IMG/VR virus record: IMGVR_UViG_3300046694_000136
Coordinates: 124,001-188,000 of that record
Source: a virus
Reading direction: 5' to 3' (one strand)
Length of the DNA stretch: 64,000 nucleotides
The position numbers and the translations under genes were made by a program. The notes under the pieces were generated by a model. It was not told the origin of the DNA and searched no databases. It saw only the letters and a list, made by a program, of their open reading frames with translations. Shown piece after piece: positions 10,444 through 61,953 of the stretch (position 1 is its first letter; every line of letters starts with the position of its first letter).

Positions 10444-10474
10444 AGGGTACTAGCCTAACGGCTAGTACCCTTTC
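10444..10474 (+). terminator. Terminator ending the 5.5-10.4 kb structural set
   Basis: A perfect 12-bp stem (10444-10455 with 10460-10471, loop TAAC) is followed by TTTCCTTCT. The non-coding stretch 10365-10609 also holds an orphan SD, a TATG element at 10479 and a promoter-like octamer at 10511. Confidence 0.8.
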
Positions 10475-10510
10475 CTTCTATGCTCTTATCCCGCTAGGGA
10501 TTTATAGACC

Positions 10511-10518
10511 TACATCAT
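10511..10518 (+). promoter_or_regulatory. Promoter-like octamer TACATCAT
   Basis: The box lies 32 bases after a TATGC element and about 90 bases before the gene at 10610, downstream of a terminator. It belongs to a set of eight TAYATHAY-like boxes in this window that resemble the phiKZ early promoter core TATATTAC. GGATGA follows at +2, as in other members. Confidence 0.45.
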
Positions 10519-10609
10519 CGGGATGACTAAAGAGTTAATCTTTATTATTAAACTCAACAGTCTTTATTATTGTAAATTAACCACACCAACCGAAAAGGGA
10601 AGAATGGAA

Positions 10610-12646
10610 ATGAGTGAAGGTAAAAACATTGTTTTGGTAGCCACTGGTTACAGTCGCCGTGAGCTTTCTGAAATTAAGGATAAAATCGGCAGATGTGTAA
10701 TCCTCAGCTCGATTGGGGATGGTCCTATCATTGGGACGATGGAAAAACTCCTACAAGAAGGTTATCAAGTAGTTTCTACGGAAACTATCGAGCCTAGTGG
10801 GGATAAGAATAAATTAGTAGTAGCTGAAGATCTGGATCGCATGATCCTTCGAGAACAACTGAAAGCACTCGGCATCGAGATTGAAGTAGTTGTTGATTCA
10901 GATTCAGTCAGCTCTATGGTCAATGGCTTGCTCGCCCTTCCTTCTACTCATGAGGAGATGAAGAAGATCCTTGGTCATACTCCTTACGAGGGTAATTACG
11001 AAAGGGACTGTCACCAGCTTCTTGGTCAAATCAAAGAGGCTTTCCGTCTGTTCATGATGCGGCATCCAAAGAACGAAGCCCTTCGTGACCTTACTATCGG
11101 TCGTCTGGGCAAGGAACTGACTGAACGTGCTCCTAGCTCCGATGTCAAAGACTCTGCAAAAGAAGCTTCTGTCACAGTCACCGTCGGCGAGGGTGTCAAG
11201 AGTGAGGACCTTCTGTTCGAAATCTTGAAAGAAGTAAAGGGCTTTCGTGAATCGGTTCAGTCGCCTTCTGCTGACGATCGTCGTAACCACGCAATCAGAG
11301 AGTTCCTGTCGACTTCCCAGTTGTCGGTAGAAGCAATCGTCAACGGACTGCGCGCCATTGAGGCCGGGACCACAGAGCAAGCTGGTTCCGATCACTATAC
11401 CAGAGCTCTCGCAAAGGAACGGATCACCAAGGCTATCAACGGTGGACTGAAACACGTCGGTAATGGGAAGAACTTTATCGAGGCTCTAGCCGATGCTTTG
11501 CTGGGGGACGAAAAGCAGGAAACTCGTACGCCTACTACCAAGGAAGAGTTTGTCAGTCTGTTAACCGAAGCGGTAGGTGATGTCGGGGCTGCTCGAGTAC
11601 TTCCTCCGATCTCCTTGGATCGCATGACCGCCAACACTCGTGAGCAGGTTGTCAAACTGTTGAACCCGACCTTTTCTGCGGTGTTCCATGGTCACTATAA
11701 CGCACATATCCAGACTTTCAGCACGGAGCAGATCTTTAAGGCCCTCGTTGAAGCATTGGACGGAGATGATAGTGTTGTCAACTTCTACGGGCTGAATACA
11801 CTCGGGGTTAGCGATAAAGCAACATTGCGTCATGAACTTTCCCGGGCGCTCGGTATCCATCGGGCTAAAGTGGTCGGTAGTAACAAGCAAAGTTTCTTGG
11901 AGGGTCTGATTAACGCTCTGCAAGAGGATAAGGTAATCGATAGTCACATCGTAGTGAACGGTCTCGGTAACCTGACCGAAGCAGACGGTGTTGAGCTGGT
12001 GAATATCCTCAAGCAAGGTCTTGGTGACTCGGTGTTCGTTGGTCATCAAACCAGAACCGAGAATATCCTCAGGAAGTTACTTGAGGCGGTTTCCGGTGAC
12101 GAGATCAATCAGGTAACACTCCATGATCTGAAATACATTGACAGTCGTGCCAAGCGCAATCTGTGCGCCGCTCTTAAAGTTGGACTAACCAAGTTCGAAG
12201 AACTCGAGCAACGGGATAAGAACTTCGCTATTAACGGAGCTGAGACTGAAAAGAAACCTAACGTGAACCTTACTCTGGGTAAACTCGTTCACGAATGGAA
12301 ACAGGCTGCCGCTGAAAAGGGTATTGAAATCAATGAAATGGAGTTGCTCAATCATCTCCTCCAACAAGTCATTGCCCAACATTCCCCTATGTACCGACTG
12401 GAAGGTGGTAAGTGGGTTGAGCGTGTCGTTCCCTTGGCTCGTCCTCTTGACTGGTCTGTAGTTACCCAAAACATACCTGAGCAGGTAACCACTGCTATTG
12501 TTTTCGGTAATCACACGTTCGATTGTACTAAACGTGAAGACGGTAGTGTTAAGGTTACTACTAACCATGGGGATAATAAATCGAGCAACCTTATCATCAC
12601 CAAAGATGGTTCGGTTAAGTTCGAAGATCCTGGCTATCTGGGATAG
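10610..12646 (+). CDS. Unknown 678-aa protein with repeated helical modules
   Basis: ATG 10610 is chosen because AAGGGA lies nine bases upstream; ATG 10604 is only three bases from it. The first 70 residues have an alpha/beta pattern with a possible nucleotide- or ligand-binding fold (NIVLVATGYSRRELSEI, then a Gly-rich turn). From about residue 290 there are at least three diverged repeats of about 75-80 residues. Each begins with L-x-x-L-x-x-A-L-x-x-D and ends in a helix closing in G-L. The C-terminus is beta-like. I do not recognise the family. It stands alone between two hairpins with its own promoter-like box, so it is probably expressed separately from virion genes. Confidence 0.45.
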   Translation: MSEGKNIVLVATGYSRRELSEIKDKIGRCVILSSIGDGPIIGTMEKLLQEGYQVVSTETIEPSGDKNKLVVAEDLDRMILREQLKALGIEIEVVVDSDSVSSMVNGLLALPSTHEEMKKILGHTPYEGNYERDCHQLLGQIKEAFRLFMMRHPKNEALRDLTIGRLGKELTERAPSSDVKDSAKEASVTVTVGEGVKSEDLLFEILKEVKGFRESVQSPSADDRRNHAIREFLSTSQLSVEAIVNGLRAIEAGTTEQAGSDHYTRALAKERITKAINGGLKHVGNGKNFIEALADALLGDEKQETRTPTTKEEFVSLLTEAVGDVGAARVLPPISLDRMTANTREQVVKLLNPTFSAVFHGHYNAHIQTFSTEQIFKALVEALDGDDSVVNFYGLNTLGVSDKATLRHELSRALGIHRAKVVGSNKQSFLEGLINALQEDKVIDSHIVVNGLGNLTEADGVELVNILKQGLGDSVFVGHQTRTENILRKLLEAVSGDEINQVTLHDLKYIDSRAKRNLCAALKVGLTKFEELEQRDKNFAINGAETEKKPNVNLTLGKLVHEWKQAAAEKGIEINEMELLNHLLQQVIAQHSPMYRLEGGKWVERVVPLARPLDWSVVTQNIPEQVTTAIVFGNHTFDCTKREDGSVKVTTNHGDNKSSNLIITKDGSVKFEDPGYLG

Positions 12647-12702
12647 TAGTGAATTAAGTAATTAATTACTACACGCACTATAGTAGTACCCCACCACGTA
12701 AA

Positions 12703-12732
12703 CCTCTCCTCAGCCTTAAGGCTGAGGAGAGG
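12703..12732. terminator. Hairpin after the 678-aa gene
   Basis: A perfect 13-bp inverted repeat (12703-12715 with 12720-12732, loop TTAA) has no good T-run after it. It belongs to a family of similar hairpins seen at 13381, 27977 and 36347. Confidence 0.6.
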
Positions 12733-12775
12733 TAACCACTATCTATGCAATTTAAGTTATGCCTTCTTTTAAACC

Positions 12776-12783
12776 TATATCAT
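12776..12783 (+). promoter_or_regulatory. Promoter-like octamer TATATCAT
   Basis: The box lies 42 bases upstream of ATG 12825, 32 bases after a TATGC element and 22 bases after AAGTT. The same AAGTT-to-box spacing is found at 24515 and 61861. Confidence 0.45.
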
Positions 12784-12824
12784 CAGGGTAGTCAATCATT
12801 CGATTAATGTACCGGAGTACCGTT

Positions 12825-13370: not shown

Positions 13371-13380
13371 GCATACATAG

Positions 13381-13430
13381 GTACCCTACCAGCCTCTGAG
13401 GCTGGTAGGGTACTAATCTATGTTTTTTTT
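13381..13430. terminator. Bidirectional terminator between zincin and helicase
   Basis: A perfect 14-bp stem (13381-13394 with 13400-13413, 5-nt loop) lies between converging genes. On the plus strand it is followed by TAATCTATG and a run of T. Confidence 0.8.
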
Positions 13431-15615: not shown

Positions 15616-17811
15616 ATGGACAAAGAAAATTTCAAGAAGGTTACGGCGAGTGTTGATAAGTCGCCGAACTACTTCCACAACACCCGCCAAGCTCTGACCA
15701 ACGGTAACCTTGCCTCGGTAAGCGGCAACGAAAGCTACACCGAATTCCAAAAGGCCCTGGACTCTGTTGACGGCTCCGAGTCGCTCAAAGTCAAGCAGAT
15801 GTTCACCGGCTTCAACCAGAACAACTTCGACGCGATCAAAAGCGCCTGGGGCAAGGACATCGTCGCACGCGCCAAGAGCGTTATCGATGGTTACGACGCC
15901 GACGGTCAGAAATTCGCCGCGGTCGCTGGTCAGGAAGGCTTCTCCCTCCAGAACTTTGGTGGCGACGAGCAATCGATCCGCGCAGCCAACCTGGTACTGA
16001 ACGCCCAGTCCCACCTGCAAACCAAAGGCGCTGATGCCCTGTACGCTCCGATTTCGATCGGCTACAAGGAAGAAGGCGTTGAAATGACCGTTCGTGCCGC
16101 CGGCCTGGGTACCTATACCTACGGTGCTACCGCGTTCCAATCCGCTTCCGATCTGCGTCCGGTCTTCGGCCTGCTGCGTTCCGGCGACATGTTCCAGGAA
16201 GAAGTCCTCGCTGTGTACCCTGTGTACCCTGCTGACGACGCTGCTGACGAACGCCGCTTCTTCGCTCCTGCTGCACTGTCCACTCCAGTCCCTGTCAAGT
16301 ACATGGCTGGCGATGCCTACGGCCGTCAGGAACACCTGACCCAGGACTTGGTTGTTCCGGTAACCATCCCGAACTTCCTGGCCCTGACCCAGACCCCTGG
16401 TCAACAGCCGTGGACCAACACCGACGAACTGGAGTCCAACTCCATCGCGGTCAAGCGCATCGGCGTGAAAGTCATGATCGGTTCGACCGAGAAGACCTTC
16501 TTCATCAACACTGCTTCGATGTCGAACAACACCTTCGGCGTCGGTGGTCAGGTACAGAGCTCCGACGAGCGTACTCTGAACCTGAAAATCTCCCAGTACC
16601 CAGGTTTCTCGGTACAGGACAAAGACGGCAACGAAATTGGCGAGACCATCTTCGCCGACTTCAAAGCCGCCGGTTACGAGCCACGCCTTCAGCTGCAACT
16701 GACTGGTACCTACCAGCGTCAGCGCGGTGACATCACCCTGCTCGCAGGTGCGGTGAACATCGCTGAGCTGTACGAGACCAGCACCAAGGTTGTCGTCAAG
16801 TACGGCAAAGCTTCGAGCCAGCAGCAAGGTCTGTTCAACACCCTGAAGTCGGGTACCGTGGTTTCCGCCCGTACCGGCCAGAACGTCAACAACACCAACC
16901 GTGGCAACTTCGGTTACCGCGTAGAAGTGTACGATGCCTACAAGCATCTGTCCGTTCAGCGCCGTTCGCCGATCTCGGTTCAGTACCCAGTGAGCGACAA
17001 GGACGTGTACCAGGAATCTCTGGACTTCGCCCTCAAGCAAATGTCGATCATCATCAACAACCAGTGCTCCAAGACTGCGTTCGTTGAAGCGCGTCGTCAC
17101 ACCGAGTACATCAAGCAGATCGACGGTTCCGCTGTTGTTGCCAACACCCAGGGCTCCGAAGTTCTGGCTGGTCAGCACTTCCTCACTCCAACCTGCGTTG
17201 ATCGCAAGCTGAAGCTGAGCGACGTGGTTTCGGCCAACGGTTCGTACGACGTCTGGAACGCAGTGTCCGCTGCGATCACCAACGAAATCGCCGACATCAT
17301 CGCTGCGCTGTACACCCGTTCGGGCCTGGCGGCTGTTGCCGAGTACACCACCGGTGATCTGAAAGGCAAATGGTCGGTTGTTGCTCACCAGAACATCAGC
17401 CGCTTCATCTTCCGTTCGGGCGACGCTCGTACTGTTGGTCCGGTTGATCAAGCCAACGTTGTTGAAACCAACTTCGACTCGGAAATCGGTTACGTCACCA
17501 TCGTACCGAAGAACGATTCGTCGTCGGAAGTCATCGACCCGCTGGCTGGTATCGGCGTCGTTGTGACCAAAGAGAACATTGTCGTACAAGGCAACGTGAC
17601 TCGTGGCAACAAAGACTTCGGCGTTGTTATGACGCTGCCGACCTACAAGCACTGGGGCCTGAACGTGGTCATCGGTCGTCTGTTCATCGAAGACGCCCAT
17701 CTGTTCCTGACCGACGACGGCTTGATCAACGACCTGGCTGTTAAAGCAGTTCGTCTGGCCAACGCCAACGAGATCGTGCTGACTCCGGTCGTTGACCCAA
17801 ACGCACCGTGA
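15616..17811 (+). CDS. Major capsid protein, phiKZ-type, 731 aa
   Basis: ATG 15616 is preceded by AGGAA; the frame extends 33 bases further upstream but without an SD. The size matches phiKZ major capsid protein (about 747 aa). A processing-type site GQE-G lies at residues 105-108, so removal of about 107 residues would leave a mature shell protein near 620 aa; weaker G-x-E sites occur at 37-39 and 53-55. Codon use is the most extreme in the window, nearly all C/G-ending. A strong terminator follows. Assignment rests on size, expression signature, processing site and the RNAP-like gene two positions downstream, as in phiKZ; sequence identity was not computed. Confidence 0.8.
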   Translation: MDKENFKKVTASVDKSPNYFHNTRQALTNGNLASVSGNESYTEFQKALDSVDGSESLKVKQMFTGFNQNNFDAIKSAWGKDIVARAKSVIDGYDADGQKFAAVAGQEGFSLQNFGGDEQSIRAANLVLNAQSHLQTKGADALYAPISIGYKEEGVEMTVRAAGLGTYTYGATAFQSASDLRPVFGLLRSGDMFQEEVLAVYPVYPADDAADERRFFAPAALSTPVPVKYMAGDAYGRQEHLTQDLVVPVTIPNFLALTQTPGQQPWTNTDELESNSIAVKRIGVKVMIGSTEKTFFINTASMSNNTFGVGGQVQSSDERTLNLKISQYPGFSVQDKDGNEIGETIFADFKAAGYEPRLQLQLTGTYQRQRGDITLLAGAVNIAELYETSTKVVVKYGKASSQQQGLFNTLKSGTVVSARTGQNVNNTNRGNFGYRVEVYDAYKHLSVQRRSPISVQYPVSDKDVYQESLDFALKQMSIIINNQCSKTAFVEARRHTEYIKQIDGSAVVANTQGSEVLAGQHFLTPTCVDRKLKLSDVVSANGSYDVWNAVSAAITNEIADIIAALYTRSGLAAVAEYTTGDLKGKWSVVAHQNISRFIFRSGDARTVGPVDQANVVETNFDSEIGYVTIVPKNDSSSEVIDPLAGIGVVVTKENIVVQGNVTRGNKDFGVVMTLPTYKHWGLNVVIGRLFIEDAHLFLTDDGLINDLAVKAVRLANANEIVLTPVVDPNAP

Positions 17812-17886
17812 TCCCGCCGACGTTCTACGGGCAACTGACGTTTCCCGAGAATAGATCGTAAGTAGGATCCTGTCCTGAAAAGTGGT

Positions 17887-17926
17887 AACCCTCCCCGACC
17901 TGCAATGGGTCGGGGAGGGTTATTTA
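17887..17926 (+). terminator. Terminator after major capsid gene
   Basis: A 14-bp stem (17887-17900 with 17908-17921, loop of about 7 nt) is GC-rich and followed by TATTTATG. The rest of 17812-18035 has no gene but holds a TATG element at 17925 and a promoter-like box at 17961. Confidence 0.8.
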
Positions 17927-17960
17927 TGCAACTTAGAAATCCGCTAATTAAATTCAAACC

Positions 17961-17968
17961 TACATTAT
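17961..17968 (+). promoter_or_regulatory. Promoter-like octamer TACATTAT
   Basis: The box is preceded by CC and lies 36 bases after a TATGC element and 68 bases before ATG 18036. It is identical to the box at 53104. Confidence 0.45.
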
Positions 17969-18035
17969 CTAACTGTGAGAGTATTTAAGGTGACCTCGTG
18001 CACGGGGTTGTAAAGAAGCTAGAGGACTTAGTTCG

Positions 18036-19169
18036 ATGAACAACAGTATTTCTAGTTTGAAACTAGAATATCATATTTCGAATTATAGCAATGACGAACT
18101 CATTGTTAAAACCCAAGGAGGGTTGAACTACATAATACGCCGTCAAGAACGTACTGTCTCTCGTAATTACGTGAGTCGGGAAGTAGACATAAAGATCAGC
18201 GGTGTTAAAACCGATGATTTCTGGTTAGACGATCGGTTCGCTCAGACAGCCTTTGATAAGGCACTTCTGAAAGATCTAGGTGAGAGCATTGAAAAGCACA
18301 GGAATAATAACCGTATGCTTGCCGATGTTTTCACGTCCGACTTTTATGTCAAGATATTCTTGAGTGGAAGCTTGGCTGACGAGAATGAAGTAATCCACAG
18401 TGACATACTGGGGATCTCGTTATACAACTCCATGGAAGCGGCGAATATCGCACCGCTCAACAGTCACGGCTTCGTGCTGCAAGAACTGTTCGAGCAAGCG
18501 CATCATCATGCAATGGAAAAGCCTAAAGGAGGGCTACATTACTTTATCTACTTGAATGATCCACTCAGTAAGCTAAACCCAATCTACACGAACGTGATGG
18601 GTAAAGCCGTTCGGGTTCCAGTCGTACAGGATATCAGCAGGCCTGCTGGTTTGTACGTCGGTCTGCAATATGGCAGCATTGAACCCCAGGAACTTTACTT
18701 TACGTGTGAGGAGCTCTCTAAGGAGTCATTGGGCAAGCACGGGTTATTCGAGACCATGGAAGAGTGCGCGATGGGTGGCAACACTGACCGGGCTATTACT
18801 GCTGAAAAGAAACTGGCGGACAATTCTAAAGCTATGGGCGGTTTGTTGAAGGACAGAACAACACTGGAAGAATCCTTGAGGAAAGCTCAAGCAGAGGTTG
18901 CAGGTTTGGCGGATGAATTGCGCCAAGCGACCAGCAATCATCGTAACGAGACTGAAAGGTTGAAAGCACAACAGACAATGGCGTTGTATCTCCGTGATAT
19001 GACTGCCACAGCTACATCAGCTCACCACCAGATCAAAGATTCAGTAACAAAAGCCAATCAGGACATCGAAAAGAAACGTAGCAGCGCAAATAGCTGGGGG
19101 GAGATTGCCAAGGCAGTAGCCGCGGTAACCACATGTGCTGTGACTGTTTACAAACTGTACACTTCCTAG
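18036..19169 (+). CDS. Coiled-coil protein with C-terminal membrane segment, 377 aa
   Basis: ATG 18036 follows a weak AG-rich region. The N-terminal 240 residues are a mixed alpha/beta domain with a His cluster (FEQAHHHAM around residue 153). Residues 255-350 are strongly heptad-like (coiled coil). The last 20 residues (AKAVAAVTTCAVTVYKLY) form a weak single transmembrane or membrane-dipping helix. A tail-anchored topology, N-terminus in the cytoplasm, is implied. I do not recognise the family. It is led by a promoter-like box and immediately precedes the RNAP-like gene. AT-rich codons contrast with the capsid gene and suggest low or early expression. Confidence 0.45.
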   Translation: MNNSISSLKLEYHISNYSNDELIVKTQGGLNYIIRRQERTVSRNYVSREVDIKISGVKTDDFWLDDRFAQTAFDKALLKDLGESIEKHRNNNRMLADVFTSDFYVKIFLSGSLADENEVIHSDILGISLYNSMEAANIAPLNSHGFVLQELFEQAHHHAMEKPKGGLHYFIYLNDPLSKLNPIYTNVMGKAVRVPVVQDISRPAGLYVGLQYGSIEPQELYFTCEELSKESLGKHGLFETMEECAMGGNTDRAITAEKKLADNSKAMGGLLKDRTTLEESLRKAQAEVAGLADELRQATSNHRNETERLKAQQTMALYLRDMTATATSAHHQIKDSVTKANQDIEKKRSSANSWGEIAKAVAAVTTCAVTVYKLYTS

Positions 19170-19179
19170 GGATAAGAGG

Positions 19180-20838
19180 ATGAACCGTAAGTTACTCGAC
19201 TTAATGGACGCAAAGATGCCAGACTTCAACCCTGTCTTGACTGAAGGGTTTCATGAGAAAGAGTTCGAGAACGGGCACGTCTGGTTTGACAGAGCGTTAA
19301 GAAGCATTCTTAAGAACGTAGAAAGTCGTGGGGTTTTCTTCAAAAAGTGTGAACCAGCTGATCCGAAAGAGTTCATTGATTATCTGATTGGTAGCAGTCG
19401 GAAGATCTTTGATGCTCACCGGGAAACTCTGTACCCTGTGTCGATTAACATCGATTACAAGGATAAGGGTGGTCAGATCATATCCTTTAAAGCATTTACG
19501 ATGCTGCCGTATACGAATGTGTATGGTGATGTCTTCCTGCGGGATGCGTTCTACAGCGCTCAGTTCGTATTGGCAGAGCGGGCACTCCCTGTTACTAAGG
19601 AGAACTCGATCTTTGTTAAGGTTCTGGGTTACAAGTTCAAGATTGGTGTGGAACCGTTTAACATTACGCAAGTCTTTAGCGAGACAGGTGTACTGACAAC
19701 TCGGAGCTACGATACCAACTTAGCAGCTAACCGTTTCTACAGTCCTACTGAAGCGCGGAAGATTAAAGATACAAAAACACCGACTCCTCTTTTGGCTTGG
19801 TATATGTTCGCCAAGATGGGATTCAGTGAAGCAATGAAAGAGTATGGCGAGTGTGATTATCGTCTAGGTCCGTTGGATGCACTGGTTACAGAGTGCAGAC
19901 CAGAAGACCGCTGGGAAATCTTCTCACGTAGCAACTCAGGGACCAACAAGAAGTCTCTAGGTGATTTCGTGAGCTTGGATACGGCGATTGCAGTCAGGAA
20001 CCTGAATGCGGGTCGTAAGTCTCTCAGTGCCATGGCATTGCAGTACATGTGTGCGTTAATGTTTGTGGTGGATTGTGCATCGTCTTATTTCGACATAGAT
20101 CGAATTGACGATCCGAGTTACTGGAAGTTGATCATTGGTCGCTGCTCTGTGAAAGCAGGGGACACGGATGAGTATATCCTGCGTCTGATCGATCAACATT
20201 TTGAAACCATTAACGAATACTTGGACGAAGACTCCATTAAGCGGTTTGCTGGACAGTCGATTGTTGTAAGCAATATGTTCGATCTGTTCAACTACATCAT
20301 CGCTAACCGGAGTGAGATCGTTCAGACCACCAACCGCGCCTCTGCGTTCCACAAAGAGCTGGCTAGCTTGGAGTTCATCCTTGACAGTCTGTTAACCGCG
20401 GCTAACAACTTTAAATATGACATCAAGAACAATTCAGAGATCAACCAGAAAAAGGTTGCCAAGTTCTTGAGTGATCACTTTCATGTGAAGGAGATTGACA
20501 ATGCACGAAACGCTAACCTTATCCAGGAAGCCACTCCTACGGATAATCCGTTTATTGACTACGTTCTAGGGTGCATGCCACAGCACAAAGTCTATACCGG
20601 TATGGGGAAACAGAAGAAAGGTGACTTTGACGTCAACGACAGTGCAACGTTCACTGATGCTTCTCAACCTTTCGTACACAGCTACTTCAGGGTAAATAAA
20701 CCTAACCCTGATAGCCGGGGTTATCTTAACCCCTGTCTGTATCTGATCGACGGTGTAACAACAGGACTGGATCCGCAGTTTAAGGATCTTTACGTTCGAA
20801 CAGATCACAGATTACGTCATAGAGAGCCATGGCCATGA
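19180..20838 (+). CDS. Putative multisubunit RNA polymerase beta-subunit fragment, 552 aa
   Basis: ATG 19180 has a GGATAAGAGG SD. The length, a mostly helical middle and a C-terminal section with FRVNKPNPDSRGYL resemble in layout the beta-subunit region up to the rifampicin pocket in split jumbo-phage RNA polymerases. In phiKZ the non-virion RNAP beta N-terminal subunit (gp123) lies just downstream of the capsid gene (gp120); here this gene is second after the capsid gene. The polymerase would transcribe middle or late phage genes in the host cytoplasm together with subunits encoded elsewhere. Catalytic NADFDGD is not expected and not present. This call rests on pattern and synteny, not on an alignment. 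Confidence 0.5.
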   Translation: MNRKLLDLMDAKMPDFNPVLTEGFHEKEFENGHVWFDRALRSILKNVESRGVFFKKCEPADPKEFIDYLIGSSRKIFDAHRETLYPVSINIDYKDKGGQIISFKAFTMLPYTNVYGDVFLRDAFYSAQFVLAERALPVTKENSIFVKVLGYKFKIGVEPFNITQVFSETGVLTTRSYDTNLAANRFYSPTEARKIKDTKTPTPLLAWYMFAKMGFSEAMKEYGECDYRLGPLDALVTECRPEDRWEIFSRSNSGTNKKSLGDFVSLDTAIAVRNLNAGRKSLSAMALQYMCALMFVVDCASSYFDIDRIDDPSYWKLIIGRCSVKAGDTDEYILRLIDQHFETINEYLDEDSIKRFAGQSIVVSNMFDLFNYIIANRSEIVQTTNRASAFHKELASLEFILDSLLTAANNFKYDIKNNSEINQKKVAKFLSDHFHVKEIDNARNANLIQEATPTDNPFIDYVLGCMPQHKVYTGMGKQKKGDFDVNDSATFTDASQPFVHSYFRVNKPNPDSRGYLNPCLYLIDGVTTGLDPQFKDLYVRTDHRLRHREPWP

Positions 20839-23144
20839 GTTTTTATAAACCAACTAATCAGGGACAGCCGGGGCGGACGATTGACACTGCCTCGGTCCCT
20901 AGCGCGGGTGGTTCTGCCCAGAACCCCTACGCAAAGATTGACCCCCTGTCTCATCTACGAGGTTTGGTAGATGGCGGGGGTGCGGGTAATTTGAATGCCG
21001 GTTCCGGTATTAAGTGGGACATGGTAGGTAACTCTCGCTACGAGGACGACGGCTTACGTGCACTTCGTGGTGAAATTAATACGGAAGAGCTGATCAATCA
21101 GGAGTACATTCAAAAGTATTCCGAAGCGGCAGCAACCTTCTTTAATAGCTTGGCTCAACGCCGGGGTGGGATGTACGCAGAGTATCGCGCCGTCCTTGAA
21201 CATTTCCGTTACAACAAGAAAACAGGAGCAATGTGTCACATCCGCAATGCTTTTGTGGACACGATCAATAGTCACCCAGAGTTCATGGTGGTTATTGCTA
21301 AAGCAGGTGTACCAGTCTTCGGTCAGATTTTGATCGACATGGCTAAAGCATCAACGTCTGGTAACTTGAACGAAAGCGAGTATCGGAAAGCATGCCAAAT
21401 GGCAGCAAGTATGGTTCTCACGATGGAGTTTATCTCCTGGCTCTGCAAGTCCACAGCTGGTCGTGAAAAGGCTTTTGCTTTAACACCAGAAATCAAGAAG
21501 ATGGTATCTGATCTAGAACGATTCAAAGATGCGTTTACTCAAGCATGTACGACGTTCGGATTGAGCAACCCGTACGCCGGGTTGGTATTTGAAATCAGCA
21601 CCCCTATTCGCGCTGATAGCAGCATGATTATGGAAGCTGAACGTGCGCTGGCAGGCATGACCCGTTTTGGTGGTGATGCCTTTATGAACCACCAGCCACA
21701 AGAAAGCGCTGAGGCTTTGTTGGAGCAAGTATTCCGTACTGCTCAGCAAGCTAATGCTCGTTATGTACCGGAAGACAGTCATCAGAACGATAATGGCTTT
21801 GGTCAAGTTGAATGGGAAACCAAAGAAGTTGACTTTGGTCGTATTACCGAGGAAAACAAAAAGCATTACGACTATCGTCGTTTGTTCAAGTGGATTGGTA
21901 AAGATGATTGGTACTTTATTCCCGAATCTGATTGGAAGAAGGTTAAGCATGCCTTCAAGCGTCACCCCGATCAGCCAGAACAGGAAGACACTGTTCTTAA
22001 TGGGAGCTTCCGTGCAGTAAAGATTGATCTTGACGGTAACGATGAGGGTTGGATCAGTACGGTTATTCGAGCGGAGGGATTAGATATGGCAACCGGGTTT
22101 ACTGACCCACAAAAGCTGCTCCCGGCATTGGAAGCAGTAGCAGGTAGTACAGAGACGCAGGTTACAGCTATTCCAGCTGAGAAGCTGTTGGTTAAAGGTA
22201 AGAGCGCAAGCATCCCTGCTGCGGCCTGTGAGAAGCTGGAAGGCATTCCAGTGATCACTTTGAAGGAGAAGGTTACCGAGGCGTCTTCTGGCGCTATTCT
22301 GTCGGCTATCTCATCCACGAACAAAGTGTTGACTGCCAACATCAAAGGCACCAACGCAACATCGTTTAACACGTGTATTTGGGAATACTTCAACTGCGAC
22401 TCTGATGAAGACCGTCAGCGTCTGACTGAGAACCTGCCTTTCCTATTCAAGGATCTGGAAGACAGCAATCTGTCGTTCTACATGCGCATGAAGAAGATCG
22501 TTGATTTCTTCGATACTGAAGTTATTGACGGTGAGCTGGTTGATTACATCGACACTCGTTTGACGTTGATTGTAAACGATTGGCTTATCAACTCACTGGG
22601 CTACCCCAATAACCCAGATCATCATCGTTGGCTTGCTGCTGAGTCCATCTTTGAAGATTACAGTGAACTGGATAACATCTTCAAAGAGCAGGATGAAGAA
22701 GCTTTCCGTTGCTTCAATATGGAAGCCAGTCCGGCTAACTTCCTGACTGAACAAATGAAACTGTTTGTAGCTGAAAGCGTTCACAACAAAGAAAGCGCAA
22801 AAGACACCATTATCGACAAAGTCCAGAAAGGTCTGCGTCTGGTCACCGAGCGTCCGATCCACTTCACTATCGTGAACAAACGTCTGCCACCATCGGACAT
22901 TGATCAGGGTAATGATCCGCTTCTTATCCGACGAAGTAAGTTTCCCGAGTTCTTCCATCTGGTTGAAAGCGGGTTCGAGCCTTCAATGGGTAAGGGGAAG
23001 GAAATCAAAGTGGTCGACAAGATCATCCAGTTCTCTCAGGATGAATCGATGTGGCTATTCTCCTACAGTTCGTTGGATGTCAACATGGCTACAATGCGCC
23101 GTGTGACTACCCGTAGAAGTTTGATGATGATGGCACTGGTGTAA
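20835..23144 (+). CDS. Unknown large protein, 769 aa
   Basis: ATG 20835 overlaps the upstream stop (ATGA) and has an AGAGAG SD eight bases away; ATG 20829 is too close to that SD. The N-terminal 60 residues are Gly/Ser/Pro-rich and likely disordered. The rest alternates helical and mixed regions, with a short Ala/Val/Thr-rich beta segment around residues 420-490. Translational coupling to the RNAP-like gene suggests a related role, for example transcription or virion-injected protein, but no motif supports this. No membrane segment was seen. A hairpin follows. Confidence 0.4.
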   Translation: MSFYKPTNQGQPGRTIDTASVPSAGGSAQNPYAKIDPLSHLRGLVDGGGAGNLNAGSGIKWDMVGNSRYEDDGLRALRGEINTEELINQEYIQKYSEAAATFFNSLAQRRGGMYAEYRAVLEHFRYNKKTGAMCHIRNAFVDTINSHPEFMVVIAKAGVPVFGQILIDMAKASTSGNLNESEYRKACQMAASMVLTMEFISWLCKSTAGREKAFALTPEIKKMVSDLERFKDAFTQACTTFGLSNPYAGLVFEISTPIRADSSMIMEAERALAGMTRFGGDAFMNHQPQESAEALLEQVFRTAQQANARYVPEDSHQNDNGFGQVEWETKEVDFGRITEENKKHYDYRRLFKWIGKDDWYFIPESDWKKVKHAFKRHPDQPEQEDTVLNGSFRAVKIDLDGNDEGWISTVIRAEGLDMATGFTDPQKLLPALEAVAGSTETQVTAIPAEKLLVKGKSASIPAAACEKLEGIPVITLKEKVTEASSGAILSAISSTNKVLTANIKGTNATSFNTCIWEYFNCDSDEDRQRLTENLPFLFKDLEDSNLSFYMRMKKIVDFFDTEVIDGELVDYIDTRLTLIVNDWLINSLGYPNNPDHHRWLAAESIFEDYSELDNIFKEQDEEAFRCFNMEASPANFLTEQMKLFVAESVHNKESAKDTIIDKVQKGLRLVTERPIHFTIVNKRLPPSDIDQGNDPLLIRRSKFPEFFHLVESGFEPSMGKGKEIKVVDKIIQFSQDESMWLFSYSSLDVNMATMRRVTTRRSLMMMALV

Positions 23145-23866: not shown

Positions 23867-23885
23867 CGCCAATTTGTTTCAAACC

Positions 23886-23893
23886 CATATTAC
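23886..23893 (+). promoter_or_regulatory. Promoter-like octamer CATATTAC
   Basis: The box is one base different from the phiKZ early core TATATTAC, has TTGGGTG downstream and lies 62 bases before ATG 23956. Confidence 0.45.
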
Positions 23894-23955
23894 TTGGGTG
23901 CAACACCGGAGCTAGAACATTGGGTTCTTTTTCCATTACTAAAGAGGAAACACAA

Positions 23956-24516: not shown

Positions 24517-24536
24517 GTTGCAGAATCCTTCAGATC

Positions 24537-24544
24537 TATATAAC
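24537..24544 (+). promoter_or_regulatory. Promoter-like octamer TATATAAC with upstream AAGTTGCAGA
   Basis: The box lies 64 bases before ATG 24609. AAGTTGCAGA at 24515 sits 22 bases upstream, and GGGTGAATA follows. The same layout occurs before the paralogous gene at 61954. Confidence 0.5.
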
Positions 24545-24608
24545 TAGGGTGAATATAAACGTGGTAGTTTTGCTACGTTCACCTTTATTGTACTGTAGGA
24601 GCTTTATG

Positions 24609-27272: not shown

Positions 27273-27280
27273 CATATAAC
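27273..27280 (+). promoter_or_regulatory. Promoter-like octamer CATATAAC
   Basis: The box lies 21 bases before ATG 27301, with TATGC at 27263. It is close in sequence to the boxes at 23886 and 24537. Confidence 0.35.
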
Positions 27281-35369: not shown

Positions 35370-35965
35370 AATCCCCCGACTGTGCACGAGTCATTTCGTT
35401 AGACCAATCGACTTCGTGCACGGGGGTGAGTGTCTTTGATGTCAACCTCAGAAAGCCGGAGCCGATTAAGCTTCTGTATATGAACACCATTTTTGGTGAC
35501 AAGTTGCTCTACGACATTCCCGATCAGTACAACGATTTGGCTAGTACTAAGGTTCTTGCTCGTAGCTGGGCTATGGCTCGGTCTGTCAACATGCTGATAC
35601 AGGTGTTTGAGCCAGACATGGGGATCGGTGAAGATAACTTCCTCGGTCTTTCTCCAGAGACGTTTAAGAACCTGATTAAGTTGACAGAGATTCTGCGGAG
35701 CCCGTTTGTTGAGAATGGTGTACACCTTTCCCTCGTCCTTCCCCGGTTGGCTAAGTCGATTGTTGGGGCTGACTTTAAAGGGAGTACAAAGGACGATGTG
35801 CGCATTGGTCTCATGAACTACCCGCACTTGGATGCAAATGGGATTGATCTCTCCATCGTTGACGAACACAGTTCCGACAGTGGCGCTATTGGACTTTGGC
35901 GATGTGAGAAGTTGGCCCGAGACCATGGAGTATTTATCGGTGACCAATCCTTCGCAACAAAATGA
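35354..35965 (+). CDS. RuvC-like Holliday junction resolvase, 203 aa (TTG start)
   Basis: The frame begins at TTG 35354, six bases after AAAGGA; no ATG in frame precedes the first active-site residue. An RNase H-fold acidic set is visible: D17 in VISLDQSTS, E93 in GIGEDNFLG, and D170 with D175 in SIVDEHSSDSGAIG. This matches RuvC/poxvirus-type resolvases, which cut four-way DNA junctions. In a phage it would resolve branched replication intermediates before packaging. Two in-frame overlaps (16 bases upstream, 26 bases downstream) make it part of the structural transcript, with the holin-like gene after it. Confidence 0.75.
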   Translation: MFEILKSPDCARVISLDQSTSCTGVSVFDVNLRKPEPIKLLYMNTIFGDKLLYDIPDQYNDLASTKVLARSWAMARSVNMLIQVFEPDMGIGEDNFLGLSPETFKNLIKLTEILRSPFVENGVHLSLVLPRLAKSIVGADFKGSTKDDVRIGLMNYPHLDANGIDLSIVDEHSSDSGAIGLWRCEKLARDHGVFIGDQSFATK

Positions 35966-36335
35966 AACAGTATTGAGTGATGATGACAGTTCGGTAACGC
36001 CTACCCCGCCTGTTGGGATGGAAAGAGAAGTACTGGGCAAGTGGACGGTCAACCTGCGCAACATCGGGGGGATCGTCGCGGTGTTCGTCGTGAGTATCAT
36101 GGGGGTGTTCAACTCTTACACCATCCATGTCTCCGTTAGCACGAACAACACTTGGCCCAGCGAGATGTCAATGTTCATCATGGTTGTCGGTCCAGTGGTT
36201 GTGGCGTGGCAGTTCATGAACGTCAGTAAGACCTTGAATACCATCTTCCAAGGTGCAGGGGATTTCACTAAGCTACGTGAACGCGCAGCCAAAATGATTG
36301 CCCCTACTCCTAAAGACGATTCGAGACAGGAATAA
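35940..36335 (+). CDS. Holin-like two-helix membrane protein, 131 aa (GTG start)
   Basis: GTG 35940 has GGAG nine bases upstream; ATG 35925 is an alternative with a poorer SD. After a polar Ser/Thr/Pro-rich N-terminus (about 40 residues) there are two hydrophobic helices: VAVFVVSIMGVFNSY and MFIMVVGPVVVAWQF, separated by a short polar loop, and a charged C-terminus. This is the usual two-helix holin layout. It converges with the spanin pair on the opposite strand, which supports a lysis role. The start overlaps the resolvase gene. It could instead be another small phage membrane protein. Confidence 0.55.
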   Translation: MTNPSQQNETVLSDDDSSVTPTPPVGMEREVLGKWTVNLRNIGGIVAVFVVSIMGVFNSYTIHVSVSTNNTWPSEMSMFIMVVGPVVVAWQFMNVSKTLNTIFQGAGDFTKLRERAAKMIAPTPKDDSRQE

Positions 36336-36346
36336 AAGACAGCATC

Positions 36347-36380
36347 TACCCTACCCAGCCTTATGGGCTGGGTAGGGTAT
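36347..36380. terminator. Bidirectional terminator between holin-like gene and spanins
   Basis: A perfect 14-bp stem (36347-36360 with 36366-36379, 5-nt loop) lies between two converging transcription units. Confidence 0.8.
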
Positions 36381-36392
36381 TTGTCTGCATAT

Positions 36393-36875
36393 CTATCGCT
36401 TGTCGCTTGTGTCGCTCGGTAAGGCATCTACCAAATCATTGATGGTCTGAACCAACTGCGTGACCGTACGTTGCCCGACGTAGACGGTCGTGTTGGCATC
36501 ATCCAATCTCCGAGTAGTGTTGATTAACAAGACACGAGTGACCCGGTAGCAGGCTTCCTTTGACTCTTTGCTAAGCTGCGGGTCCGTGCAGTCATTTTGC
36601 TCTAGATAAGCAGCGAGTTTACTTAGCAGGTTTGGGGGAGGTACCGTCGCTGTGGTCAGGAGCTCCGGCGGGACTTCTGTTAACTTTGTTCGCAGGCTGA
36701 CCATTTGTTTCTTGTACAGTTGGATTTGCACCTGCTCGGCCTTCACCTCGAGGTACGTTGCCCCCTCCGTAACCGTCGGACTGCTCGAGCATGCTGTTAA
36801 CATACTCATTGTAAGGATCATTAGCATCGAGACCATAGCGCCCCAAAAGCTGTTTGTGCAGCATGCTGATTTCAT
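36393..36875 (-). CDS. Outer-membrane spanin (o-spanin) lipoprotein, 160 aa
   Basis: Start ATG 36875 (minus strand) has a strong AAGGAAG SD. A signal peptide is followed by the lipobox LTAC with Cys at residue 29, so the mature protein should be lipidated in the outer membrane. The mature part is helical with two further Cys (about 96 and 108) that may form a disulfide. The first 257 bases lie inside the i-spanin gene in another frame, the classic Rz/Rz1 embedded arrangement. Together with i-spanin it should fuse inner and outer membranes in the last step of lysis. Confidence 0.75.
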   Translation of the reverse strand: MKSACCTNSFWGAMVSMLMILTMSMLTACSSSPTVTEGATYLEVKAEQVQIQLYKKQMVSLRTKLTEVPPELLTTATVPPPNLLSKLAAYLEQNDCTDPQLSKESKEACYRVTRVLLINTTRRLDDANTTVYVGQRTVTQLVQTINDLVDALPSDTSDKR

Positions 36876-37107
36876 TACGACTTCCTTGCGCTTGCGCTAA
36901 AAGAACTTCGTGGAGTTCAGTGGTCGACTTGGAGATTTTCTCCCAGTTGGCCGCGGATTGTTTCATGCTTTCGGCAACCTGGGTGATGCCCTGCATGCTT
37001 TCGGCTGACAAGTTTGTCTGTCGCGGCCAAAGAGTCTGCAAGAGCATCAGTCCCAATACCGCCAGTAGCAACGATATGATGATGGTTACCTTAAATCCGT
37101 CCTTCAT
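36619..37107 (-). CDS. Inner-membrane spanin (i-spanin), about 162 aa
   Basis: ATG 37107 (minus strand) is preferred because AAGGGG lies eight bases upstream; ATG 37137 would add ten residues. The short N-terminus is followed by one transmembrane segment (VTIIISLLLAVLGLMLL), then a helical coiled-coil region and a Gly/Pro/Asn-rich C-terminal tail. This is the type II topology of an i-spanin, and the o-spanin gene overlaps it out of frame. Upstream, three bases away, lies the 412-aa structural gene, so lysis and structural genes share a transcript. Partner binding to the lipoprotein is expected in the periplasm. Confidence 0.7.
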   Translation of the reverse strand: MKDGFKVTIIISLLLAVLGLMLLQTLWPRQTNLSAESMQGITQVAESMKQSAANWEKISKSTTELHEVLLAQAQGSRNEISMLHKQLLGRYGLDANDPYNEYVNSMLEQSDGYGGGNVPRGEGRAGANPTVQETNGQPANKVNRSPAGAPDHSDGTSPKPAK

Positions 37108-37140
37108 ACCACTATCCCCTTCATCGCTATTCGCCATGAG

Positions 37141-38379
37141 CTAGCTCGCTTGTATCACGCTTCTGATCGAAAGTAAGTAAGCATCATTAAGCTTACTCGG
37201 TTTAAACCGGTTAGTGTAACCGTGGTAGAGAGCGCCACCATTACCAGTACCCGTTTTCCAGTTGAGGTATTCCCGTTGGTTTCCTAGGTCAGTGTTGAGT
37301 ATCCTTCTGTTAATAACACGGTAAGTGAAGTACTTAGGGAGCATCCCATCCGCAGTCAACAAAGGCAGTGCTTTGGTTTCCTTGGTTTCGTACGAGAAAG
37401 GTGACTTGTACGGCAGGACTGGATCCAGCGACACGTACAGGTGCGGGTTATCAGCAACGATCAAGAAGGTAGACGGGTTAGTGAGCAAAGCTTTCCAGAA
37501 CTTCTCAGTGCGGAAGAACTCTTCACCAACTACTTCACGCTCTTCGTCAATAACACCTTCCAGATCAATGAAACGTTTCGAGTCAAAGATCCGAGTAAAC
37601 CAGTCCACCCGTTCAGTACGGATAGCCAACATCTTCTCACTGACCACGTTGATCACGTCGTTCAGATACAAGCGACCGCCGATGCTCATCCAGATCGTCT
37701 TATTGAAAAGAGGAACCGGAGTCTTCAGGTGCACGAAGGTATAAGTATCGCCGTCCTCAAAGATCACATCTTCTTCTTTGAAGCCGAAGGTCTTGAGCTT
37801 GGTCAAAGTGTTCAGGTTGATGCAGCAAGGGTGAGAGTTGTCATTCACTCGCCAGTTCTTACCTGCGTTCAGCAAGTAGAGCCCGGTGTCATCACCCACT
37901 GCTCTGACAAGGTGCCCGTTGAATACCCAAAGGCAACGATCAGCTAATGCCTTGTAATCCACTGTGGATCTGTCCGTCTTATACAGACGAATGTCGGGAG
38001 CACTGGCTGTATCCAGATGAACCTGTCGGTCCATTGCCATGTTGGCATCGCCCGGGAAAGGAGTGAACCACTCGTACTGGATATCGTGCAACGTGGCCCA
38101 ACGGTATTCGGTTCCGGGAAGCTCATTGCTGGTGTTCAAGACGACTGAAGTCTTCGTATCCAGCCACTCTTGGATGGTCCCGTTGAAAGAAGTGAACTCG
38201 TTGACGTAGTCCAGCATATCAATGGAAACGTCACGACTATAGAGGGAATCTGTAACAACAATGACCAGTACACTGAACGTAATTGGCAGTGCTCTGGTTT
38301 GAAGGGCCGAAATATCAACGATCTCTTGCCCTTCTGGGACCAGCTGGTTGATCCCAACAGCCCGTTTATACGTGTACAT
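37141..38379 (-). CDS. Virion structural protein, 412 aa
   Basis: ATG 38379 (minus strand) has an AGGAG SD ten bases upstream; a TTG at 38388 is too close to it. The product is beta-rich with many aromatics, and the C-terminal half (from about residue 230) is the usual style of jumbo-phage structural proteins. I cannot name a subunit. It is divergent from the 249-aa fibre-cluster gene across a 120-bp intergenic region with a palindrome. Its stop lies three bases from the spanin start. Confidence 0.4.
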   Translation of the reverse strand: MYTYKRAVGINQLVPEGQEIVDISALQTRALPITFSVLVIVVTDSLYSRDVSIDMLDYVNEFTSFNGTIQEWLDTKTSVVLNTSNELPGTEYRWATLHDIQYEWFTPFPGDANMAMDRQVHLDTASAPDIRLYKTDRSTVDYKALADRCLWVFNGHLVRAVGDDTGLYLLNAGKNWRVNDNSHPCCINLNTLTKLKTFGFKEEDVIFEDGDTYTFVHLKTPVPLFNKTIWMSIGGRLYLNDVINVVSEKMLAIRTERVDWFTRIFDSKRFIDLEGVIDEEREVVGEEFFRTEKFWKALLTNPSTFLIVADNPHLYVSLDPVLPYKSPFSYETKETKALPLLTADGMLPKYFTYRVINRRILNTDLGNQREYLNWKTGTGNGGALYHGYTNRFKPSKLNDAYLLSIRSVIQAS

Positions 38380-38499
38380 AAAGGACAAACTCCTAAACGA
38401 TTCTATGAAATCCTGACCCCCTATAGTCCCCTATAGGAACCTCTTATATGGGGTATTAGTCATAAAATACCTTTAATGCCTTTCTTTGGAGATAGTCTC

Positions 38500-39249
38500 A
38501 TGGCCATGGTCACTTATGGTTGGAACCCCTTTCAAGAACGTGTCGACTGCATTATCACTCCACCGGAAGTGATCAAACCTTCCGATCAGGATACTCGACG
38601 CGAATTCGTTCCTCGTTACGCACCGTTCTTTGCCAAAGACTTTCAGCTGTTCATGCAGGGTAGTAACACCCCGCTGGTCGCCGGTGTCGATTACGCCTTC
38701 GCTCACCCGTTCACCAAGTTCGCTACCAAGTACAACCGCAACGTGTACGGGTCGATCGTTCTGCTGAAGCCGATCACCGCGATCCTGACAGCGACCTACT
38801 CGACCATTGGCACTCCATTCGTTCTAGACGAACCGGCCTACGCGACTCTGGTGGCCAACATCGCCAACAGTCCTCGTCAGGCGTACTGGGACGATCTCAT
38901 TGACGTTCCTGTCGAGTTTCCACCAGATCCCCACGAACACCCAGCCACCCTGTCGTACGACTATCTGGAAATGATGTCTCGTCTTGAGAACTTGATTCTG
39001 GTGATGTCGGGTACCGATACCGGTGCAGGCGAACTGACACTCAAGCAGTTACTGCAAGAGCACATCGCTAAGGGCCTCCCTGAGGCGCATACCGCTACTC
39101 CCGGGTCAGTAGGGTTGGATCTCACCGCTAACGCCCCTAAAGCGACGCTGGAAGATCTGTTGGGTAATAGTGACAACGCTATGATCACTGTTAAGACCTT
39201 GAAAGAAGCGTTCCGTATGTTTAGCAAAGACCAACTCGATTTGAACTGA
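38500..39249 (+). CDS. Tail-fibre cluster protein, 249 aa
   Basis: ATG 38500 is chosen because TTTGGAG lies eight bases upstream. The N-terminal 120 residues look like a compact beta domain; the C-terminal part carries a His/Gly-rich fibre-type repeat section ending in PGSVGLDLTANAPKATL. The same (H)xx-G-x-VGL pattern is shared with the three large fibre proteins downstream (NPHGIDKIRLQLGNLDNF in the 1241-aa protein). It is likely a fibre-attachment or short fibre protein. Adsorption to host surface is the probable role of the set. Confidence 0.5.
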   Translation: MAMVTYGWNPFQERVDCIITPPEVIKPSDQDTRREFVPRYAPFFAKDFQLFMQGSNTPLVAGVDYAFAHPFTKFATKYNRNVYGSIVLLKPITAILTATYSTIGTPFVLDEPAYATLVANIANSPRQAYWDDLIDVPVEFPPDPHEHPATLSYDYLEMMSRLENLILVMSGTDTGAGELTLKQLLQEHIAKGLPEAHTATPGSVGLDLTANAPKATLEDLLGNSDNAMITVKTLKEAFRMFSKDQLDLN

Positions 39250-39259
39250 GGAACTGGGA

Positions 39260-50634: not shown

Positions 50635-53097
50635 ATGCTGACTAAATTGATTCTTGAGAATTACATCCCTTTACAGAAAAACGGGATTAATTATGTTGAG
50701 CTGGACCTTAACGCTATGGTCAACTTGTTCATTGCCCAGAACGGTGTAGGTAAAACAAGCATCCTGAAAGAAGTTAACCAACTCCCTCCCGAAGCAGCCG
50801 ATTTTGATACCGGCGGTCGCAAGTACGGTGAGTGGAAGATTGAAGGTAAGCATTACATCTTTGATTCCCGCACTGGGGTATCGGATGGTCACTCGTTTAA
50901 ACTGAACGGTGAAGAATTGAACAAGGGTGGAACCTTCATGGCTCAGAAAGAGTTGTGCTGGACCCACTTCAAGCTGGATCGTCCTCGTGCTAAGTTCCTG
51001 TCAGGTTTGAAAGTATACGACCTGTTCAGTAACTTGACTCCAGCGCGCCGTAAGGACATCCTGTTGTGGCTTTACCCAAATGACACCACTTATGCCATGG
51101 GTGTCTTCAACAAGCTCAAAAGCGAACGTAACGAGCTTAAAGCGGTATTGAAGAACCAAGTCTCTCGCTACGCTGATGAAAGCGAGAAACTGAAACGGAT
51201 TACCGAGTGTGGGGTAGATGAACTGGAGGCTCGCATCAAGCACATTGATGAAGAACTCCGTAAGTCTCTCTTGATTCGGGGTTCGTTAGAAGAATACAAG
51301 ATCCATCCGGGCCTGCGTCAGAAGATCGAACAGTTCGAGTACCTGTCGACCGCTTTAACGGTTAACAAGGTCAGTGGGTTTATCGAATCTGAAGATGAGC
51401 TGGTAGAAGGCATCGAGATGACCGAGCGGTTGATTGATAACTACGAGGAAAACATCGCAGCTATTCAACACACCATCGGTGAGAACGCTGGGTTACTGGA
51501 GGGGGTAGAGGAGTACTTGCAAGATCCTCTGTTGTTCCAGAATCAAGCTGACCAGTTAGAGACGGAGATCAACCAGTTAAAGAGTTCTATTAAAGAGCAA
51601 ACCGTCATCTTGGGTGACTACCCGGTCTTCAATGAAGAAGAGATGAGCTTCCAAGGACTGGATCTGGTTTATGACTCTTTCGTAGCACAATTGCACTGCG
51701 TGACCAATGCTAATGACAGCAGTATCAATGGAGCCGTCTACAAGCAGATGGAGATCCAGCTGAATAACCTTAATAACCGCATCCGAGACTACGAAGGTAA
51801 ACTCTCTGCGGGTGGTCATCAGCTTAAGCATTACAACAGCGCAGAAGCCGTTGAATGTCCTGACTGCAAGCATAACTTTAAAGTGGGGATAAACGAAAAG
51901 GATATCCATCGCCTGAGAGCCGACGTGGATAGTTGGACGGTGGCCATTGGTAACTTGGAGAAAGAAAGGGACGTAGTAGCTGATAAGTTGGACAATGACC
52001 GTAGCTGGTATGAAAGTATGGTTGCATTGCATCAGTTTTGTCGCATGCGGTCTGACGCTCCTTGCCTGGGTGTATTGGTTAAAGACTTCAACGTGGGTAA
52101 GAACGAGATCTCTAACCTCTTGAACGCGCTCAGAGCCTATAAGACGCGTTTCGATGCCACTAAGCGTATCGAGTCCTTGCTGGAAGAAAAGAACCTCATA
52201 GAGACCCGCATAGGGCTTATGAACAGGGATAACGTTCTGGACGTTGCATCGTTCGTAGAGGGTTGGGAACGGGAACTGGTTAAAGACCAAAAGAAATTGG
52301 CTTTCTACAACCGTCGCCTTAAAACCTTTAACGGTCGTTTAGCGATTATCCGTAACTACGGGAATGACTTGGCTAAGTTGAATGAACTGAAAGAAGAAAT
52401 CTTCCAAGGTCTGTTCGACGAAGGTTATGTTAAGTTCCGTAAGCAACTGGATGAACGTATCAGTATCCTGACCGAAGAGAAAGAAGACAACTTAAGGTCC
52501 ATCATTACCAGTCGTTCGTTGTCGGCTGTGGTTGACTCCATTCATGACGAAGTTCTCCGTCTGCGTAAACGGATGATTATCGTTGAAACATGGATGGATA
52601 AACTGTGTCCCAATAAAGGATTCATTGGGAAATTGTTGACGGACTTTATTAAGACCTTTTGCGGTAATGCTAACGCGATGATCCAAGATGTTTGGAACAC
52701 ACCACTTTATGTGAAACCCTGTAATAAAGCTAACGGTGATCTGACTTACAGATTCCCGGTAGTGGTTGGGGATTCCAAACCGGTTCCAGACATGTCTGAT
52801 TGTAGTTTAGGTCAGACTGGGATCATTGACTTCGCTATGCGCCTTACTGCGTTGACTTACCATGGGTATTTCCCGTTGATCATGGACGAAGTGGGGACCA
52901 ACCTGGACGAAGTTAAGCGAACACGGTTCTTTAACTTTGTTCGGGAGCTGGCTCAGAAGAAAGACGCCCGTCAGATCTTTTGCGTCAGTCATTATCTATC
53001 TAGTTTTGGTGTGTTCTCGAAACCAAACGTAGTCGCCATGAAGCACGATGGCTTGACACTACCTGCGGAGCCGAACAAGAACAACACCATTAATTAA
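50635..53097 (+). CDS. SbcC/Rad50/T4 gp46-like recombination ATPase, 820 aa
   Basis: ATG 50635 is directly preceded by an AGAAGA-type SD. Walker A AQNGVGKTS is at residues 34-42. Two long coiled-coil arms flank a zinc-hook CPDC at about residues 408-411. The ABC signature CSLGQTGIIDF is near residue 721 and Walker B FPLIMDEVG near 746-754. Such proteins act with an SbcD/Mre11-type nuclease in end processing and recombination-dependent replication. No SbcD-like gene lies next to it, so the partner must be encoded elsewhere. It starts the replication and repair set at the right end of the window. Confidence 0.85.
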   Translation: MLTKLILENYIPLQKNGINYVELDLNAMVNLFIAQNGVGKTSILKEVNQLPPEAADFDTGGRKYGEWKIEGKHYIFDSRTGVSDGHSFKLNGEELNKGGTFMAQKELCWTHFKLDRPRAKFLSGLKVYDLFSNLTPARRKDILLWLYPNDTTYAMGVFNKLKSERNELKAVLKNQVSRYADESEKLKRITECGVDELEARIKHIDEELRKSLLIRGSLEEYKIHPGLRQKIEQFEYLSTALTVNKVSGFIESEDELVEGIEMTERLIDNYEENIAAIQHTIGENAGLLEGVEEYLQDPLLFQNQADQLETEINQLKSSIKEQTVILGDYPVFNEEEMSFQGLDLVYDSFVAQLHCVTNANDSSINGAVYKQMEIQLNNLNNRIRDYEGKLSAGGHQLKHYNSAEAVECPDCKHNFKVGINEKDIHRLRADVDSWTVAIGNLEKERDVVADKLDNDRSWYESMVALHQFCRMRSDAPCLGVLVKDFNVGKNEISNLLNALRAYKTRFDATKRIESLLEEKNLIETRIGLMNRDNVLDVASFVEGWERELVKDQKKLAFYNRRLKTFNGRLAIIRNYGNDLAKLNELKEEIFQGLFDEGYVKFRKQLDERISILTEEKEDNLRSIITSRSLSAVVDSIHDEVLRLRKRMIIVETWMDKLCPNKGFIGKLLTDFIKTFCGNANAMIQDVWNTPLYVKPCNKANGDLTYRFPVVVGDSKPVPDMSDCSLGQTGIIDFAMRLTALTYHGYFPLIMDEVGTNLDEVKRTRFFNFVRELAQKKDARQIFCVSHYLSSFGVFSKPNVVAMKHDGLTLPAEPNKNNTIN

Positions 53098-53103
53098 TAA
53101 ACC

Positions 53104-53111
53104 TACATTAT
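53104..53111 (+). promoter_or_regulatory. Promoter-like octamer TACATTAT
   Basis: The box lies six bases after the SbcC-like stop and about 20 bases before ATG 53128. It is identical to the box at 17961 and likewise preceded by CC. Confidence 0.4.
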
Positions 53112-53127
53112 CAACAGGACCTATGAA

Positions 53128-61837: not shown

Positions 61838-61882
61838 GTCTATTATGCATTTTATTTTTTAAGTTGCAGATTTACTCATGTC

Positions 61883-61890
61883 TATATTAC
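61883..61890 (+). promoter_or_regulatory. Promoter-like octamer TATATTAC with upstream AAGTTGCAGA
   Basis: This is an exact match to the phiKZ early core TATATTAC as I know it. AAGTTGCAGA lies at 61861, 22 bases upstream, and TATGC at 61844. The layout repeats that of the paralogous gene at 24609. Confidence 0.55.
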
Positions 61891-61953
61891 TCGTGTGAAT
61901 AAACAACGCAATGTTTTAAACTCATTGTCTGTTAACTGTACTTGGAGAACGTT

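Follow-up and report, generated by a model that had tools for sequence, protein, structure and literature searches.

The closest described counterpart of the signal analysed here is the promoter of phage EL, for which a consensus, WTTTYAAACCTACATTATY, has been published (PMC7058600, Table 2) together with motifs for 201phi2-1, OBP and phiKZ. The early promoter of AR9 is AAATATATATTAT-(6N)-G, in which the G six bases after the core is the mapped early start, and the same distance is stated for phiKZ and phiR1-37 (PMC5312081). For all phages that have been profiled, a predicted motif of this type turned out to be the consensus of the early promoters (PMC7598289).

The window analysed covers 64 kb, positions 124001-188000 in a virus record of 234,503 bases. 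The record represents a jumbo phage of 234.5 kb related to phiKZ and EL, and EL-like by its protein matches; proteins encoded in the window match those of EL and of other phiKZ-related jumbo phages, the identity being about 33% in a protein of 1241 residues and 69% in the polymerase subunit. Across the genome, 205 kb of the 234.5 kb were read in stretches, with genes called by a custom script based on simple codon usage, and the remaining ~29 kb were covered by pattern search alone. The positions 79800, 88380, 93411 and 71427 and the coordinates of the virion RNA polymerase (RNAP) genes are in genome numbering, and window positions are marked as such.

Twenty-six sites in the 205 kb share an element of about TTTYAAACC-TAYATTAY-TAGNGTGAAT. 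They match the EL consensus and precede the same genes as in EL, which places them in the EL promoter family. The EL genome (AJ697969) carries the same upstream block and core in front of the same orthologous operons, including those for polymerase and ligase; compared with EL, most octamers here resemble TATATTAC, and the GTG initiator is stronger. The phiKZ early promoter (TATATTAC), which a first-pass annotation of the window had taken as the model, does share the octamer core, the TTT block just upstream and the G six bases downstream, but the EL consensus is nearer than the bare phiKZ octamer: phiKZ has AGATC or AAACAG where this phage mostly has AAACC, and it lacks the invariant C at -1. 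The phiKZ sites themselves come with two upstream types, TTTAAACAG at small early gene clusters and TTTRAGATY at gp54, gp68 and gp121-123. The predicted promoters of 201phi2-1 and OBP/N1M2, compared by published consensus only, have the TTT block, a TATATTAY core and GTG at the same spacing, but differ in the bases that link the TTT block to the core (PMC7058600). AR9 has the AT-rich core, six bases and start G found here, and differs in its uracil DNA and its upstream sequence. Judged by its bases, the element is the EL upstream block combined with a core and putative initiator of the phiKZ/201phi2-1 type.

The first-pass annotation had listed eight octamers under the pattern TAYATHAY, at window 10511, 12776, 17961, 23886, 24537, 27273, 53104 and 61883. 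All eight are present at these positions; the pattern describes six of them but not 23886 (CATATTAC) or 27273 (CATATAAC). The window contains 21 matches to TAYATHAY against 12.1 +/- 3.7 expected, a count reached in 2 of 100 shuffles. This is a mild over-representation, and the octamer alone, inside the window only, is weak evidence. Over the 205 kb, 27 plus-strand matches fall in 37 kb of intergenic DNA versus 20 in 168 kb of coding DNA. Plus-strand intergenic DNA makes up 18% of the sequence read, and TAYATHAY read backwards matches there once. The intergenic enrichment that the annotation had named as its test is therefore clear. Genome-wide, TATATTAC has 11 forward and 0 reverse occurrences (2 and 0 for the reversed control), and among intergenic 8-mers, T-rich runs aside, CTATATTA and TATATTAC rank top or near the top.

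The extended element separates more sharply. Under a 44-column model that includes the flanks, all 26 sites are intergenic and on the plus strand, with leave-one-out scores of 13.3-43.9 bits; the best other position on either strand reaches 9.3. The strict pattern YCTAYATHAY-N6-G matches the whole genome 23 times forward and 0 times in reverse, and its reversed control 0 times. One strict match, at window 32049, lies in coding DNA and fails on its flanks. The TAYATHAY matches outside the set, 43 in the stretches read, have flank scores no higher than -11 and were rejected, among them a TATATTAC at genome 207424. The 26-site set takes in seven of the eight boxes. The eighth (window 27273..27280, plus strand) scores -15 bits, its octamer is missing at the corresponding place in the relative L025, and we regard it as a chance match. 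The proposed spacing of 20-95 bases before gene starts agrees with the 24-93 bases measured to called starts; three of the 26 sites lie ~1.1-1.8 kb ahead of the next called plus-strand gene, probably because gene calling missed small genes.

Combining this phage with EL (47 sites) gives the consensus TTTcAAACC-TAtATTAc-taGtGTGaAt. With the octamer numbered from 0, the invariant bases are C at -1, A at positions 1, 3 and 6, and T at position 4; G occupies position 14, six bases past the octamer, in 23/26 sites here and 21/21 in EL; in the other three sites here A replaces G at the predicted start. GGGTGA, said to follow several boxes, is exact at window 24537 only, with near variants at four others. 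The downstream GTG is part of the element and, by analogy with the related phages, most likely marks the transcription start as an initiator. An AT-rich core of about 10 bases is overrepresented before presumed early operons, as in phiKZ-related early promoters generally.

Because the core is AT-rich and TATAAT-like, the boxes could be taken for the -10 elements of host sigma-70 promoters, with the host polymerase reading the early genes. We consider this very unlikely. Such a promoter has a TTGACA-like hexamer 16-18 nt before the -10 hexamer; sigma-70-like hexamer pairs from a consensus scan coincide with 0/7 boxes and are no commoner than in shuffles. Moreover, the conserved bases adjoin the core (TTTYAAACC, with the invariant C at -1) and run to the start G, which is not the sigma-70 layout.

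The seven predicted early promoters of the window are all on the plus strand, and their extents (window positions) run from the TTT block to the predicted start G. The first, 10502..10525 (octamer 10511-10518, TACATCAT; leave-one-out 24.4 bits), lies 39 nt past the end of a 12-bp hairpin and precedes the gene of a 680-aa protein of unknown function with a called start at 10604. This protein (window 10604-12646) matched nothing in PHROGs or Pfam, and no counterpart turned up in EL; its gene, presumed early, is a candidate accessory takeover gene. The second, 12767..12790 (octamer 12776-12783, TATATCAT; 24.4 bits), has a 14-bp hairpin upstream, precedes the gene of a 181-aa protein (12825) and carries A, not G, at the predicted start; sites occur at a similar place in L025, L026, EL and RisingSun. 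The promoter at 17952..17975 (octamer 17961-17968, TACATTAT; 18.7 bits) matches the annotated EL promoter at 90601 and heads the operon 18036-23144. The second gene of this operon, 19180..20838 (+), encodes the C-terminal part of the non-virion RNAP beta subunit (phiKZ gp123-like; PDB 7ogp_E, E=6.7e-12; phrog_2943 polymerase). In window 15616-19180 the major head gene is followed by a hairpin, then by the predicted early promoter, one or more short genes and the gp123-like gene; the EL order looks alike, and in phiKZ a TATATTAC site likewise lies between gp120 and gp121-123.

Two further promoters, 23877..23900 (octamer 23886-23893, CATATTAC; 20.2 bits) and 24528..24551 (octamer 24537-24544, TATATAAC, with GGGTGA; 32.8 bits), precede genes of a 186-aa (23956) and a 114-aa protein (24606), respectively. 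The latter has a likely counterpart at EL 95956 and in the relatives 4.1-6.1 kb past the polymerase start. The weakest of the set, 53095..53118 (octamer 53104-53111, TACATTAT; 13.3 bits), heads the NAD-dependent DNA ligase operon and corresponds to the promoter annotated at EL 132472, which precedes the orthologous gene. The leader predicted for this operon is 10 nt here (window 53118-53128) and 16 nt in EL (132496-132512), too short to fit an ordinary ribosome site downstream of the start. Finally, 61874..61897 (octamer 61883-61890, TATATTAC; 36.4 bits), with an 11-bp hairpin upstream, precedes the gene of a 441-aa protein (61954).

The phage encodes both RNAPs, with counterparts of gp55, 68, 71-73, 74 and 123 (non-virion) and of gp80, 149, 178 and 180 (virion). 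Site 79800 heads the operon that encodes the nuclear shell protein together with the gp55-like subunit, 88380 the gp68-like operon, and 93411 the operon of the gp71-73-like and gp74-like genes; together with the operon behind window 17961, these contain all five non-virion RNAP subunit genes. The identities of the gp68-like and nuclear-shell proteins were settled by PHROGs, a PDB sequence search with them having returned nothing useful. PhuZ tubulin (71427) and the ligase operon (window 53104) are also headed by sites. None of the virion RNAP genes at 19069, 34259, 35911-39984 and 101310-102371 (minus strand) is headed by a site, and the sites nearest to them are >12 kb upstream or on the opposite strand. 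This is the layout expected if an injected polymerase makes the second polymerase. In phiKZ, early promoters precede gp54, gp68 and gp121-123, whose counterparts here are likewise headed.

The same gene content bears on whether the non-virion polymerase might instead use the boxes as middle or late promoters, or another phage regulator bind them. A strand-specific element before operons is what any phage promoter or operator would look like, but the non-virion polymerase's own genes sit behind the element, and structural and head genes are without it: no site occurs before the major head gene (window 15616-17811) or in window 24.6-53.1 kb, a stretch with tail and other structural genes. The promoter classes of phiKZ also count against this explanation, since at the start of its late promoters there is only TATG, and its middle ones carry a weak AT-rich motif (PMC7598289). 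Late promoters of the phiKZ type stand before late structural genes, where the motif here is absent. We therefore judge a middle, late or operator role to be as improbable as a host promoter.

Conservation was examined with a scoring matrix trained solely on this phage, with no EL sequence in it. Applied to EL, it finds 21 sites above 17 bits, all on one strand, the next position scoring 10.1. All 9/9 'putative phage promoters' of the EL record (AJ697969) are among them. The 12 others lack annotation in that record, although the original EL publications may list some already; they lie at 28, 17579, 26015, 41007, 84866, 95956, 139704, 141114, 149107, 164551, 165840 and 206531. Genes directly behind sites here tend to have orthologues directly behind EL sites (table 10/4/3/76, Fisher p=3e-8). 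In relative loci found via the polymerase gene (62-97% identical), a site lies 1197-1234 bases ahead of that gene in 11/11 cases, and a second one 4.1-6.1 kb past its start in the loci extending that far. When the window is aligned with nine relatives, the sole long fully conserved block upstream of the 17961 operon consists of ACCTACATTAT and the bases immediately preceding it. Seven relative genomes, EL included, have 5-11 strict matches each, all on one strand, and on phiKZ the best matrix matches are nearly all TATATTAC sites, including those before gp68, gp36 and gp54. That AT-rich octamers were merely brought together by chance in these boxes, as the only mildly raised window counts and the one chance box might suggest, is scarcely credible in view of the 26:0 strand bias, the score gap, the recovery of 9/9 EL promoters and the conservation at orthologous genes; chance is refuted for seven boxes and holds for 27273.

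The boxes had also been described as lying mostly right after terminators. A hairpin does precede four of the seven real window boxes (10511, 12776, 17961 and 61883), and a strong hairpin lies within 150 bases upstream in 13/26 sites overall versus 1.3 in shuffled DNA. These hairpins mostly end 25-48 bases ahead of the octamer. Strong hairpins with recurring GGTAGGGT/ACCCTACC arms are seen at window 13380-13414, 10444-10471 and 12647-12776, with similar ones in other intergenic regions and in EL, often with the T run missing. The intergenic count of ACCCTACC is 10 against 0.6 expected, and these hairpins may serve to terminate transcription by the phage polymerases. A search of the predicted 5' leaders for conserved hairpins gave no support for any (mean z -0.25 here, -0.55 in EL).

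Taken together, placement, conservation and the genes behind the sites support the proposal that the boxes, less 27273, are early promoters, and from the sequence we hold it very probable that the seven are read by the phage's virion RNAP. What was observed directly is the element with its strand and intergenic position, how it is conserved, and which genes follow it; the polymerase that reads it, the timing and the start position we infer from phiKZ and AR9. In the proposed mechanism, the virion RNAP would enter the cell together with the DNA and read the boxes as promoter cores, recognising one continuous element of about TTTYAAACC-TAYATTAY-N6-G. RNA would start at or beside the G six bases past the octamer, a prediction drawn from the spacing in AR9, phiKZ and phiR1-37. 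Transcription units in the window would start at 10511, 12776, 17961, 23886, 24537, 53104 and 61883, many of them separated from the preceding gene by a terminator-like hairpin. The 17961 unit would supply the C-terminal part of the non-virion polymerase beta subunit, and the second polymerase would then take over transcription.

The initiator region is on the whole poorer in promoters of core takeover operons (non-virion RNAP, nuclear shell, PhuZ, replication) than in those of accessory early genes (Mann-Whitney p=0.0015, with the grouping chosen post hoc), and orthologous promoter pairs between this phage and EL show greater similarity than shuffled ones (octamer p=0.007, upstream p=0.001). 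Octamer and downstream strength show no trade-off (rho 0.07). It is possible, though we put it forward tentatively, that operons keep their own promoter variants across species, forming graded early promoter subclasses in which initiator strength would time or scale the early genes inside the regulon of one polymerase.

This type of signal is known from related viruses, and the present phage is a well-supported new example. For an uncharacterised EL-like jumbo phage the analysis yields a map of promoters. It lengthens the EL promoter model, previously 19 bases, to about 24-40 and predicts its start base; EL itself gains 12 further testable promoters. It also narrows what the little-studied virion polymerase must recognise. 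In this clade the sequence by itself is then enough to recognise early operons, and these point to candidate genes for host takeover.
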